In this document: positions 49,835-52,845 of the stretch, in pieces
Layout of the letters: every line of letters starts with the position of its first letter
How positions within the stretch are numbered: the first letter of the stretch is position 1
Assembly (NCBI RefSeq): GCF_014697475.1
Contig: NZ_JACJRV010000004.1
Location: 62,001 to 126,000, forward strand
DNA from: Nostoc sp. FACHB-152
GTDB taxonomy: Bacteria; Cyanobacteriota; Cyanobacteriia; Cyanobacteriales; Nostocaceae
DNA length: 64,000 nt
Reading direction: 5' to 3'
Translations under genes and position numbers: made by a program
Notes under the pieces: generated by a model
What the model saw: the letters and a program-made list of their open reading frames with translations, nothing else
What the model was told of the DNA's origin: nothing
The model's database searches: none

Positions 49835-50710
49835 TTAAGCCGCGCAAAAAATTGGGGCAGGTTTTACACCCACCCCCCCTTTTGTTTCTGCTATTTTGCG
49901 TCCTACTGCGGCTGCTACAGGCTTTAAAGCATCTACTAAATTCACCATGTCTTCTAAAGATAGTGCTTGACGCGCATCAGAAACGGATTTTTCTGGTTCT
50001 GGGTGACATTCAATAATTAATCCATCTGCACCACAAGCAACAGCAGCTTTAGCAACAGGTGCTACTAATTCTCGTTTCCCGACGGCATGGGAAGGATCTA
50101 CAATCACGGGTAAGTGGGTGATTTGCTTCAGGGCTGCAACTGCGCCTAAGTCTAAGACGTTGCGGGTGTAATCATCAAAGCTGCGGATACCTCTTTCGCA
50201 CAGCACCACATTTGGATTACCGTGACTAAGGATGTATTCGGCAGCCATGACGAATTCTTCAATGGTGGCGGCTAAACCACGTTTGAGCAAGATTGGTTTA
50301 TGAGCTTGTCCTAAAGCTTTGAGCAAGTCGAAGTTTTGCATATTCCTGCTACCAACTTGCAGCATATCAGCATGGGCAGCAACAGTTTCAATTTGGGAGA
50401 TGGACATTACTTCAGTGACTACAGGAATATTGTAGAGCGATCGCACTCTTGCTAATACTTCTAATCCGGCTTCTGCCATTCCTTGGAAGGCGTAAGGCGA
50501 GGTGCGGGGTTTATAAACACCTCCACGCAAAGCTTGCACAGGTGCAGGTGCTAATTTTTGAGCAACTGTTTCCATTTGTTCCCAGCTTTCGACTGTGCAG
50601 GGGCCACCAATAATTACTAGTTCTTCGCCACCGAAGGCGACTGTCTCAGAAAGTTTAACAATTGTTTGGTGGTTAGGATGAGTTTGGGCGGCAAGTTTAG
50701 CGTTAATCAT
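49835..50710 (-). CDS. aroF: 3-deoxy-7-phosphoheptulonate (DAHP) synthase, type I-beta
   Basis: First enzyme of the shikimate pathway, joining phosphoenolpyruvate and erythrose 4-phosphate, so it sets the flux to Phe, Tyr and Trp. The 291-residue protein matches the I-beta subfamily: IGGPCTVES, LRGGVYKPRTSPYAFQG (phosphoenolpyruvate site), VVLCERGIRSFDDY, VIVDPSHAVGKR and a metal-binding EIECHPEP-like stretch (IIECHPEP). There is no fused chorismate mutase or ACT domain, so allosteric control is not obvious. The leader (50711-51203) carries two tandem aromatic attenuators, giving transcriptional feedback control. Confidence 0.95.
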   Translation of the reverse strand: MINAKLAAQTHPNHQTIVKLSETVAFGGEELVIIGGPCTVESWEQMETVAQKLAPAPVQALRGGVYKPRTSPYAFQGMAEAGLEVLARVRSLYNIPVVTEVMSISQIETVAAHADMLQVGSRNMQNFDLLKALGQAHKPILLKRGLAATIEEFVMAAEYILSHGNPNVVLCERGIRSFDDYTRNVLDLGAVAALKQITHLPVIVDPSHAVGKRELVAPVAKAAVACGADGLIIECHPEPEKSVSDARQALSLEDMVNLVDALKPVAAAVGRKIAETKGGVGVKPAPIFCAA

Positions 50711-50810
50711 GGTTTGATTCTCCTTTATTAGGGACTGGGACTGTAGGGATTAGGGACTGGGGACTTTATTCTAGATAACTTTTTACTAGCCTCTAACCCT
50801 TAGCATTAAC

Positions 50811-50840
50811 AAAAAAGCCCGGAAACTTGATGTTCCGGGC
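50811..50840 (-). terminator. Attenuator 2 intrinsic terminator of aroF leader
   Basis: On the minus strand, stem GCCCGGAA (50840-50833) / TTCCGGGC (50824-50817), 8-base loop, then six T (50816-50811). The 5' arm can instead pair with GTTCCGGGT (50879-50871) at the end of leader peptide 2, giving a 9-base antiterminator. The two pairings exclude each other. It lies about 100 bases before the aroF start. Confidence 0.85.
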
Positions 50841-50868
50841 GCGTTCTGACTAATTGGCATGACGCTAT

Positions 50869-50934
50869 TTACCCGGAACTTGATCTGGGCCAAAAGTAAA
50901 AGCCGTAAAACCAGTTGTGTAAATTAGTAATCAT
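50869..50934 (-). CDS. Aromatic leader peptide 2 of aroF (21 residues)
   Basis: Tiny frame on the minus strand: it starts MITNLHN, continues with WFYGFYFW (residues 8-15, seven of eight aromatic) and ends PRSSSG then TAA at 50871-50869. Its last codons form one arm of the antiterminator stem, and the intrinsic terminator follows 28 bases later. A ribosome halted at the aromatic codons would leave that arm free (antiterminator forms, aroF on); a ribosome reaching the stop would cover it (terminator forms, aroF off). Ribosome site weak (TTGAGC). Confidence 0.85.
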   Translation of the reverse strand: MITNLHNWFYGFYFWPRSSSG

Positions 50935-51044
50935 GCTCAATACTTGCAAGAAATAGAGGTGACAGGTTACAGATTACAGGTGACAGTTAAAAGGGAAAAA
51001 GTTTTCTGTAATTTATGCCGCCTGTACAGATAGTCCTAAAAAAC

Positions 51045-51075
51045 AAAAAACCGCAGAGTTGTTTACTCTGCGGTT
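51045..51075 (-). terminator. Attenuator 1 intrinsic terminator of aroF leader
   Basis: On the minus strand, stem AACCGCAGAGT (51075-51065) / ACTCTGCGGTT (51059-51049), loop AAACA, then a T run (TTTTTTGTTTTTT from 51050). The 5' arm overlaps CCGGTGAACCGC (51081-51070), which pairs perfectly over 12 bases with GCGGTTCACCGG (51123-51112) in the end of leader peptide 1. Terminator and antiterminator share AACCGC and exclude each other. Confidence 0.88.
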
Positions 51076-51105
51076 CACCGGGCGGTTTCCAGTAGGAAAC
51101 TTGAC

Positions 51106-51162
51106 TCACCGCCGGTGAACCGCCTTAAACCAAAAATAAAAGTAGTAATTGTTGCTGAACAT
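51106..51162 (-). CDS. Aromatic leader peptide 1 of aroF (18 residues)
   Basis: Tiny frame on the minus strand reading MFSNNYYFYFWFKAVHRR then TGA (51108-51106). Residues 6-12 (YYFYFWF) are seven aromatic codons in a row covering Tyr, Phe and Trp. Codons 14-17 form the 5' arm of the 12-base antiterminator. The peptide starts about 41 bases after the predicted transcription start. It is the first of two leader peptides in series before aroF. No strong ribosome site precedes it. Confidence 0.87.
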   Translation of the reverse strand: MFSNNYYFYFWFKAVHRR

Positions 51163-51202
51163 TTATGCTGCGTTGGGATAAAAAACTAATGTATGGCTTA
51201 TT

Positions 51203-51238
51203 GAGCTTCACAATAACAAAAGCGATCGCTTGCGTCAA
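51203..51238 (-). promoter_or_regulatory. Sigma70-type promoter of the aroF leader
   Basis: On the minus strand TTGACG (51238-51233), 17 bases, TATTGT (51215-51210), predicted start near 51203. The -35 matches consensus at 5 of 6 and the -10 at 4 of 6. It is the only good promoter seen between leader peptide 1 and the divergent gene at 51439. A HIP1 octamer lies in the spacer. Confidence 0.6.
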
Positions 51239-51438
51239 GCCCTACATAACACCATAACACTCAAAAAAGCGATAGACTCGTTACAACTGTGGGAATAGAG
51301 ATTTGTTGCTGGTTGGTCACTGAAAAATAAGCGTAAGGGCATCAGTAAGGGGAGAAGCCGCTCCCTCTAACCTTTACAAGCTTGGTTAACCAACTTTGCA
51401 CGAATACGATAAACTTTTGCTCACAATATAGTTTTATT

Positions 51439-51933
51439 ATGCCCAGTTCCAAAATCTTCAACAAATCTTTTGATTATCATGGAGTTTACCCTTGCCCAGT
51501 TTGTCGAGTAGGTAAGATTTACCATATGCCATTGATGGAAACTATGGCTTGTGACTTCTGCCAAGAAATTTTTACCGTCAATCTAGAACAACAGCAGATT
51601 AAAATGCCTTCGCGTCAACCGCCTTTAATTTGGCGGTGGAATGGCTTTAGTTGGACAGAAGCCCAGTTAGAAGGTGTGGAATTAGGCTGGGGTTATGGGC
51701 TGGCTGCGATCGCTTTTGTCTTGTTTCCCACCACTTTAATTGGTATAGTAGCTTTTTACTTTCCCCCAACTCTCAATTCTCCCCTCACTTGGCTACCATA
51801 CATCTGGACAATACTAACTTTTTTGTCACATTTATCTATTATTTTGTGGATTATTGTTGAGGTTTATCAAATTCCTGTTTCAGCTTATCTCAGAGCAATG
51901 AATCGATGGCGAAATGGAGAAATGGGAAGATAG
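51439..51933 (+). CDS. Zinc-ribbon membrane protein, unknown
   Basis: A 164-residue protein. The N-terminal part (about 15-50) has a zinc-ribbon-like arrangement CPVCRVG...MACDFCQEIF, followed by a WRWNGFSWTEAQ stretch and two hydrophobic segments (about 85-107 and 120-145). It looks like a membrane protein with a cytosolic metal-binding end. The ATG at 51439 (MPSSKIF) is preferred over the in-frame start 57 bases upstream. Divergent from the aroF leader. Function not known. Confidence 0.68.
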   Translation: MPSSKIFNKSFDYHGVYPCPVCRVGKIYHMPLMETMACDFCQEIFTVNLEQQQIKMPSRQPPLIWRWNGFSWTEAQLEGVELGWGYGLAAIAFVLFPTTLIGIVAFYFPPTLNSPLTWLPYIWTILTFLSHLSIILWIIVEVYQIPVSAYLRAMNRWRNGEMGR

Positions 51934-52098: not shown

Positions 52099-52845
52099 AT
52101 GAATGAGATGGAGCTGTATTATCGAATTTTGGAATTAGAGCCTGGTGCAACACTTGAAGAAGTGAACCAAGCTTACAAAGATTTAGTTTTTGTGTGGCAT
52201 CCTGATCGTCTTCCCAAAGATAATATCCGCTTACAACAAAAAGCGCAAGAAAAGCTCAAAGCAATTAACGAAGCGCGTGAGAAATTGCGCTCATTAAATG
52301 GTAAGCTTCATCCCCATTCGCAGCCTCATCCCCATTCGCAGCCTCATCCCCATTCGCAGCCTCATCCCCATTCGCAGCCTCATCCTCATTCGCAGCCTCA
52401 TCCTCATTCGCAGCCTTATCAGTCACCTCAACCAAAAAGGCCATCTTCACCTCAACCAAATCCTCAGCCACCAAAACAAAGTCAAGATTTGAGTGGTAAA
52501 GACTTCAGTCGAGCAAATTTGAGCAATAAAGATTTGTCAGGGAGAAATTTAAGTTATGCCAATTTGAGTGGTGCTGACCTCAGTGATACTTTTATGCACA
52601 AAGTTATTTTGAGAGGGGCAAATTTATCTGAGGCAAATTTGTTTAGGGCTAACTTACTTTTAGCCGACCTCAGAGAAGCGAATTTACGTAATGCTAACCT
52701 AATTGGTGCAGATTTTAGTGGTGCTGACTTAAGAGGTGCTGACTTAACAGGGGCAAGGATGCGTTCTGGCGATCGCCTGTTGGTAAAATTGATTGGTGCT
52801 AACTTAACAGGCGCAATTATGCCAGATGGTCAAATTCATAGTTAA
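52099..52845 (+). CDS. J-domain protein with His-rich linker and pentapeptide repeats
   Basis: A 248-residue three-part protein. Residues 1-65 form a J domain with the HPD tripeptide (34-36, VWHPDRLP), able to stimulate an Hsp70 ATPase. Residues 68-130 are a low-complexity linker including six HPHSQP units, encoded by six 18-base repeats. Residues 130-245 are pentapeptide repeats A(N/D)Lxx (for example ANLSGADLSDTF), forming a right-handed beta-helix. The J domain probably recruits DnaK to whatever the beta-helix binds. This combination is not rare in cyanobacteria, but the linker length is probably variable among strains. Confidence 0.88.
   Translation: MNEMELYYRILELEPGATLEEVNQAYKDLVFVWHPDRLPKDNIRLQQKAQEKLKAINEAREKLRSLNGKLHPHSQPHPHSQPHPHSQPHPHSQPHPHSQPHPHSQPYQSPQPKRPSSPQPNPQPPKQSQDLSGKDFSRANLSNKDLSGRNLSYANLSGADLSDTFMHKVILRGANLSEANLFRANLLLADLREANLRNANLIGADFSGADLRGADLTGARMRSGDRLLVKLIGANLTGAIMPDGQIHS
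52309..52416. repeat. Six in-frame 18-base tandem repeats
   Basis: Six copies of an 18-base unit starting CATCCCCATTCGCAGCCT inside the J-domain gene, each encoding HPHSQP; the last two copies have a silent C-to-T change. Being a multiple of three, copy-number changes keep the frame. Confidence 0.95.

Follow-up and report, generated by a model that had tools for sequence, protein, structure and literature searches.

The window analysed here is a stretch of 64,000 nucleotides from Nostoc sp. FACHB-152. On its minus strand lies aroF, a gene for 3-deoxy-7-phosphoheptulonate (DAHP) synthase, the enzyme that catalyses the first step of aromatic amino acid synthesis; its identity is supported by NCBIfam models TIGR01361 (363 bits against a cut-off of 267.75) and NF006421 (401 bits against 335). 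The leader upstream of aroF holds two short open reading frames (ORFs) for peptides rich in aromatic residues, each followed by a candidate antiterminator helix and a predicted intrinsic terminator that have one arm in common (Table 1). An earlier note on this DNA had described two full attenuators in tandem, with leader ORFs at 51162-51106 and 50934-50869, named aromatic peptides, and antiterminator/terminator pairs with a shared arm and T runs. All of the sequence features that it listed are present, coordinates and peptides agree, and the arms could be located and their folds computed. The limit that it set at 51238 coincides with the -35 hexamer of a sequence resembling a promoter.

Table 1. 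Features of the aroF leader, in window coordinates
Feature	Position	Strand	Sequence	Remarks
aroF	49835-50710	-		DAHP synthase, 291 aa; gene under the proposed control
Promoter-like element	51210-51238	-	TTGACG-N17-TATTGT	Predicted common start of both modules
Leader ORF 1	51106-51162	-	MFSNNYYFYFWFKAVHRR	From ORF list; kept in relatives
Module 1 arm 1 (arm 1a)	51112-51123	-	GCGGTTCACCGG	Antiterminator 5' side, within the final codons of ORF 1
Module 1 arm 2 (arm 2a)	51070-51081	-	CCGGTGAACCGC	Antiterminator 3' side, overlaps terminator 1
Intrinsic terminator 1	51049-51075	-	AACCGCAGAGT/ACTCTGCGGTT	Predicted; followed by T-runs to about 51038
Leader ORF 2	50869-50934	-	MITNLHNWFYGFYFWPRSSSG	From ORF list; kept in relatives
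Module 2 arm 1 (arm 1b)	50871-50879	-	GTTCCGGGT	Last base is the first base of the ORF 2 stop codon
Module 2 arm 2 (arm 2b)	50832-50840	-	GCCCGGAAC	Common to antiterminator 2 and terminator 2
Intrinsic terminator 2	50811-50840	-	GCCCGGAA/TTCCGGGC + TTTTTT	Predicted; hairpin 50840-50817

Antiterminator 1 comprises 12 bp (51123-51112 with 51081-51070) and antiterminator 2 comprises 9 bp (50879-50871 with 50840-50832). Terminator 1 folds into 11 bp at -17.5 kcal/mol (shuffle z -7.1), and terminator 2 into 8 bp at -15.1 kcal/mol (shuffle z -3.6), with six T residues running to 50811. ATG-initiated ORFs of 12-35 aa with at least seven aromatic residues in eight occur twice in the whole window, both strands included, and these are the two leaders; 40 dinucleotide shuffles averaged 0.025 such ORFs, none of them holding more than one. 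Terminator-like sites (three in 50600-51900, against 1.5 in shuffles, sd 1.2) and promoter-like sites (three in the same interval, against 2.6, sd 2.0) are unremarkable alone. The striking point is the combination of leader elements and their conservation, rather than simple site counts. Rfam, with its families of amino acid leaders, T-boxes and riboswitches, gave no match at the gathering score in the window, and four sub-threshold matches (E 1 to 3.9) in 50700-51300. The DNA between the modules (50940-51040) resembles short repeats (CTGTCACCTGTAATCTGTAACCTGTCACC), as judged without a repeat tool. On the plus strand, the translation of the ORF at 52099-52845 has a run of PHSQ repeats and then further repeats; we take it to be a J-domain protein-like sequence with pentapeptide-like repeats.

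A scan of named genomes carrying AroF yielded 80 loci, mostly from Nostoc or other genera of the Nostocales and one from Trichocoleus. Searched generically for micro-ORFs rich in aromatic codons, all 76 named loci with enough upstream DNA proved to have both leaders; the four left out of the ORF counts (L024, L047, L050 and L063) sit at contig ends that leave no more than 102 nt of DNA before the gene. When the window, the 80 named loci and 23 further loci are taken together (L084-L086 are left out of this count), both leader ORFs are present in 98 of 104, and the other six are the four contig ends and two single-module loci. Leader DNA is distinct in 98 of 100 loci, two duplicates having been dropped, and 96 of those 98 hold both ORFs.

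Wider draws of genomes were searched with covariance models of module 1 (R2) and module 2 (R1), which were partly built from loci later counted. In a draw of 244 genomes from the phylum, 26 carry an aroF ortholog (above 420 bits, at least 72% identity), the next proteins, among the matches listed, being 45-56% identical. The models find both modules in 24 of these 26, and the DNA of the two exceptions reads as module 1 only (G110) and module 2 only (G137). In a draw of 388 genomes from the class, 142 hold an aroF ortholog at E at most 1e-105. Here a module was called at a model E of 1e-5 if it preceded aroF on the contig and strand of that gene; by this rule 114 genomes have both modules, 23 have module 1 alone, four have module 2 alone and one has neither. 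The DNA of all 28 exceptions was read by eye, bringing the total to 134 double loci (114 by model, 20 by eye), seven single and one, G488, that is cut by a contig end and placed in neither group. Doubling is the usual state among the drawn aroF-ortholog genomes and no local oddity. The earlier note had staked its reading on relatives keeping the aromatic codons and the complementary arms, and both are kept.

Among the 23 module-1-only results of the models, 18 hold a diverged module 2, namely 16 from the genus g157 together with G363 and G477 from two other genera. An example of the diverged leader 2 of g157 is NWYYGFFYTTGSGLW, with arms CCGGGTCAGG/CCTGACCCGG, and the two arms are altered in this matched way in nine of ten g157 loci, L155 being the exception. 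Two further genomes are double by reading, one with a thinned aromatic block in leader 1 (G484) and one with a GTG start (G277). The true single-module loci have leader 1 only in G110, G251, G268, G297 and G307, the last four of which belong to family f45, or leader 2 only in G137 and G408.

The models also matched in six genomes that have no aroF match at the cut-off (G320, G334, G434, G278, G030 and G466). By eye, aroF follows the leaders in G320, G434 and G278, and the locus in G334 stops at the contig edge. In G030 (L126, G030:C48; reversed locus, 1350-1700) what follows leader 1 is a broken remnant of aroF, and the sequence suggests a locus that is being lost. The G466 locus (L149, G466:C109) has a leader-2-like stretch and a terminator, with no aroF within the 901 bases read; the stretch is perhaps a remnant. 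The phylum draw gave 11 weak matches as well (E 2.4e-5 to 0.008; three to the leader-1 model and eight to the leader-2 model), seven of which were read, that is, all save G086, G006, G174 and G165. Reading found no aromatic leader in G118, G128, G111, G221, G233 and G073, and these matches are taken as chance. Outside the window's class, a distant member of the phylum, G230 (L127, G230:C12, about 771-891), has a single aromatic leader, MQKPNFSFFWFYFNPQGSD, and a terminator before a gene judged by eye to encode DAHP synthase. This is a possible single-module relative, which fits either an old single attenuator that was doubled later or an independent origin; one case cannot decide.

Within the window's own genome, the leader-2 model followed down to E 10 gives one strong match and nine weak ones, and the leader-1 model, within the draws, gives one match. 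By eye, L111 (E 0.11), the one weak leader-2 match looked at, has no aromatic leader, and we regard it as a chance match. Six other aromatic-pathway genes of this genome (two other DAHP synthases, prephenate dehydratase and three genes with an anthranilate-synthase N-terminal domain) have no aromatic micro-ORF (at least five aromatic residues in eight) and no terminator above the scoring threshold within 450 nt upstream of each gene itself, a scope that is distinct from the starts of any enclosing operons.

The leader peptides are 17-20 aa long for leader 1 and 19-24 aa for leader 2, each in 96 of 97 distinct loci. Phe, Tyr and Trp are found in 97, 97 and 96 of 97 leader-1 peptides and in 97, 96 and 97 of 97 leader-2 peptides, which fits the joint reading of the three amino acids proposed in the earlier note. 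In leader 1, the four positions preceding Trp are F or Y in 93, 91, 96 and 96 of 96 rows; this codon table was anchored on Trp, so that the Trp column is constant by construction, and L015, an exception whose leader 1 lacks Trp, was left out. At the F/Y columns, departures from the majority base at codon positions 1, 2 and 3 number 18, 49 and 44 of 480 in leader 1 and 14, 37 and 69 of 485 in leader 2, with F/Y interchanges counted among the position-2 changes in both. Single-base codon differences in the aromatic columns comprise 11 synonymous, seven aromatic-to-aromatic and 23 other changes in leader 1, and eight, eight and nine in leader 2. These counts are a weak test of peptide selection for leader 1, and the test is low in power because the leaders are U-rich. 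As far as the aligned sequences tell, aromatic character is kept in both leaders. Gaps in the aromatic block of ORF 1 (37-row alignment A1) are three bases long, with one deletion, in L082, and one insertion, in L101, L103 and L105; the alignment of ORF 2 is less clean as to gaps. The three-base gaps in ORF 1, together with the kept aromatic residues, would argue for translation of the leader; the weak codon counts of leader 1 and the lack of a Shine-Dalgarno-like core before it in 86 of 97 loci weigh on the other side.

Covariation was assessed on 37-row alignments spanning the sampled diversity, against shuffles that leave relatedness in place. Antiterminator 1 is paired in 91.9% of cells, with 19 two-sided changed cells in four pairs (3.5 in shuffles); antiterminator 2 in 93.1%, with nine in three pairs (2.0 in shuffles); and terminator 2 in 97.0%, with 15 in three pairs (4.7 in shuffles). 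None of 500 shuffles reaches these counts in any of the three. Terminator 1 is paired in 89.4% of cells and has eight two-sided cells in four pairs (5.3 in shuffles, 43 of 500 reaching this number); seven of its 11 pairs are invariant, and its pair types are reached by 96 of 500 shuffles. The pair types of antiterminator 2 are reached by 474 of 500. The covariation score exceeds all 500 shuffles in each of the four helices, and the paired share drops from 89-97% to 14-64% when the partner is shifted by 1-3 columns. Judged from these alignments, all four helices carry two-sided changes, terminator 1 being the least clear, and the complementary arms described by the earlier note co-vary in relatives. 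Arm 2 has to serve as partner to arm 1 as well as to arm 3, so that evidence for both helices of a module also supports the switch between them.

The small hairpin TTCAC/GTGAA in arm 1 of module 1 is paired in 99.4% of cells and shows no two-sided change, and is therefore uninformative. Module 1 has no clear protector (1:2) stem of the kind by which termination is restored without translation in trp, only this small hairpin, and the pairing of GTGA with TTCAC is perhaps a protector hairpin. The GTGA that closes ORF 1 (window 51120-51106) is invariant in the 37 rows, even in L094 and L101, which do not use it as their stop codon; at the ORF 1 end of L137 and L139 it is altered.

In 97 of 98 distinct loci, the 120 nt ahead of the start codon of the first leader contain a promoter-like element of the form TTGAC-N17-19-TANNNT (fraction in shuffles 0.011). 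This figure is partly fitted, since the pattern was picked after inspecting the sequences, the shuffles being scored with the same pattern; an earlier, less simple pattern had matched 10 of 98. In 59 loci the element is 47-49 nt from that start codon. From the tail of terminator 1 to the second start codon the median distance is 26 nt, and it is at most 45 nt in 86 of 96 loci; in the window it is 110 nt, widened by the repeat-like DNA. This short distance leaves little space for a second promoter between the modules. With a single promoter-like element before leader 1, the two gates would therefore act in series, and polymerases at module 2 would already have cleared terminator 1.

The geometry of the switch was modelled with an assumed ribosome footprint that covers the 12 nt beyond the first base of the A-site codon; a footprint of 12-15 nt from the P site is cited in a passage of PMC3641672. 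Leader 2 of L022, L033 and L097 has no terminator by the rule applied and was left out of the folding sets. Between the start of arm 1 and the stop codon the distance is 15 nt at 85 of 99 loci in module 1, and 5-10 nt at 93 of 96 in module 2; as exceptions, the ORF 1 stop of L094 comes before arm 1, and ORF 2 of L097 continues beyond arm 1. Control codons upstream of arm 1 and a stop codon in or just past it are the arrangement in which, on this model, ribosome position would decide the fold. In the nascent RNA preceding arm 3, with the ribosome at the first aromatic codon, the predicted antiterminator has a probability above 0.5 in 99 of 99 loci for module 1 and 95 of 96 for module 2; with the ribosome at the stop codon it is blocked, by construction from the assumed 12-nt footprint. 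At 66 of 99 loci just 6 nt separate the final aromatic codon of module 1 (F12 in the window locus) from arm 1; this codon allows an antiterminator probability above 0.5 in 27 of 99, and on this model F12 is too near arm 1 to work well. That of module 2 permits the antiterminator in 95 of 96 loci. Because the arms used for the geometry were picked by best complementarity, covariation is the sole independent evidence for the arms.

Equilibrium folding alone shows no clear switching in module 1 or module 2. In the full-length RNA with the ribosome at the first codon, the median antiterminator probability is 0.62 for module 1 and 0.06 for module 2, the latter rising to 0.48 at the best codon. Medians of the mean terminator pair probability at the first aromatic codon versus the stop codon are 0.70 versus 0.97 in module 1 and 0.89 versus 0.98 in module 2. 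Module 2 would thus favour its terminator at equilibrium even with a stalled ribosome, and would need kinetic trapping, that is, a given order of folding.

Clustered codons for the products of the pathway, mutually exclusive helices formed through a common arm and a U-run terminator before the gene make up the anatomy of an attenuator, and the leader, by its sequence, fits it. We conclude that aroF is very probably gated by two ribosome-mediated transcription attenuators in series, each reading Phe, Tyr and Trp codons. Both leader ORFs have arm 1 of their module at the 3' end. When aromatic aminoacyl-tRNAs are plentiful, the ribosome would reach the stop codon and cover arm 1, arm 2 would then pair with arm 3, and the terminator so formed would release RNA polymerase. 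When Phe, Tyr or Trp is scarce, the ribosome would stall on the aromatic block and leave arm 1 exposed, which would capture arm 2 ahead of the synthesis of arm 3, so that transcription proceeds. Module 2 would repeat the same test, and stalling would have to open both gates. Transcription of aroF should then approximate the product of two read-through probabilities, giving low leak and a steeper response. The attenuation interpretation of the earlier note is thus supported by the sequences, from which we infer translation of the ORFs, termination in vivo, the response to amino acids and the multiplicative behaviour.

A more specific version of this proposal, plausible and held tentatively, is that a same-signal double attenuator, ancestral to the class and near-always paired, works as a two-stage cascade. 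A stable antiterminator in module 1 and a kinetically trapped one in module 2 would have different set points, and together would make an ultrasensitive, low-leak valve.

The two modules might instead sense different things, for example mainly Trp in one and mainly Phe/Tyr in the other, or the overall state of translation, and so form a logic gate. Trp codons total 104 over 99 leader-1 sequences and 187 over 99 leader-2 sequences, about one per leader versus two, and the usable codon window differs between the modules. A four-base Shine-Dalgarno-like core precedes leader 2 in 59 of 97 loci and leader 1 in none of 97 (86 have no core before leader 1, and the other 11 only a three-base partial), so that initiation on the two ORFs may differ in rate. 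Nevertheless, both peptides contain all three residues at nearly every locus, and either module should therefore respond to any of the three amino acids; we regard separate signals as unlikely.

It is improbable that only one module works as an attenuator, the other being no more than a leftover or a plain terminator. The seven single-module genomes in 142 (five with leader 1 only, two with leader 2 only) and the thermodynamically weaker switch of module 2 would agree with such a reading, but both ORFs are kept, both antiterminators and both terminators show two-sided changes, and the arms of module 2 in g157 have changed in a matched way where a leftover would decay. Still harder to maintain is a conserved structured RNA with a protein or metabolite trigger in which the aromatic ORFs are incidental. 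Although the invariance of GTGA, also where it is not a stop codon, would suit it, the aromatic residues are kept while codons vary, the gaps in the ORF 1 aromatic block are of three bases, the stop position and arm 1 remain in register, and no Rfam family reaches its gathering score in the window. That the terminators, both of which resemble intrinsic terminators, merely close upstream transcription and leave aroF unregulated is barely credible, as the adjacent upstream ORF (51382-51933) runs on the other strand, both terminators come after the promoter-like element and the leader ORFs, and the antiterminators covary.

The double, ribosome-mediated attenuator that we favour belongs to a known kind. 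The trpL and pheL leaders of Escherichia coli and the his, leu and ilv leaders are the classical ribosome-mediated attenuators, and tandem T-boxes exist before trp genes. The aroF leader shares with the trpL/pheL class a leader peptide of product codons, arm-sharing hairpins, an intrinsic terminator and a biosynthetic gene downstream; unlike that class, it has two full modules in series that would each read three amino acids, three arms with no clear 1:2 protector stem, a cyanobacterial host and no Rfam match. The classical attenuators are treated in PMC3641672 and PMC11802643. In Corynebacterium glutamicum, aroR is described as a leader with a Phe-Tyr-Phe peptide before the DAHP synthase gene aroF (PMC4046766, PMC11802643), and is reported to respond to Phe limitation, Tyr being without effect (PMC11802643); one leader peptide is described there, in another phylum, whereas the cyanobacterial aroF leader has two. 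The Acholeplasma element uORFC-13-1, which precedes aroF and combines an apparent terminator with a uORF that has one or more Phe codons, differs in being, in the passage that presents it, one motif from 24 sequences of another phylum (PMC8632094).

Doubled leaders have also been described. In Salmonella, tandem leader ORFs, mgtM and mgtP, control one mgtCBR transcript; according to the passage on this system, it differs in its separate signals (ATP and proline), in hairpins unlike intrinsic terminators and in a target outside amino acid biosynthesis (PMC3641672). By sequence, the two ORFs before aroF have all three aromatic residues in common and so would point to a single signal, unlike mgtCBR, and the aroF leader would add a second case, differently built and widely conserved. 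Two attenuator units of unstated type, predicted in a database, before an aromatic supraoperon of Streptococcus pneumoniae (PMC1173090), tandem terminators in the rimP leader (PMC2965389) and the tandem riboswitches of Bacillus clausii metE, which sense two different ligands directly (PMC3641672), are alike in their series arrangement, and the passages on them mention no leader peptides. As for the range of hosts, a 2010 survey states in the passage concerned that, before its own case from the Firmicutes, leader-peptide systems were known only from Proteobacteria and Actinobacteria (PMC2965389), and according to a 2016 paper reliable data on attenuation in cyanobacteria are lacking (PMC4833913). 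Among the papers listed by literature searches whose coverage leaves most subscription journals outside, none reports a cyanobacterial aroF leader, leader-peptide attenuation in cyanobacteria or a doubled same-signal leader-peptide case; the earlier note likewise named no doubled form in cyanobacteria. Leader-peptide attenuation is known in kind; its doubled same-signal form and the cyanobacterial host group appear to be new.

If the proposed mechanism is true, aroF would be the first cyanobacterial gene for which attenuation mediated by the ribosome is described. The 134 double, five leader-1-only and two leader-2-only genomes of a single draw amount to a natural experiment on the value of doubling. 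Because the mechanism needs coupling, the aroF leader also bears on how closely ribosomes follow RNA polymerase in cyanobacteria. It would further offer a practical means of controlling the production of aromatic compounds by photosynthetic hosts, and if the two-stage cascade holds, the valve would sit on the entry of carbon to the shikimate pathway.
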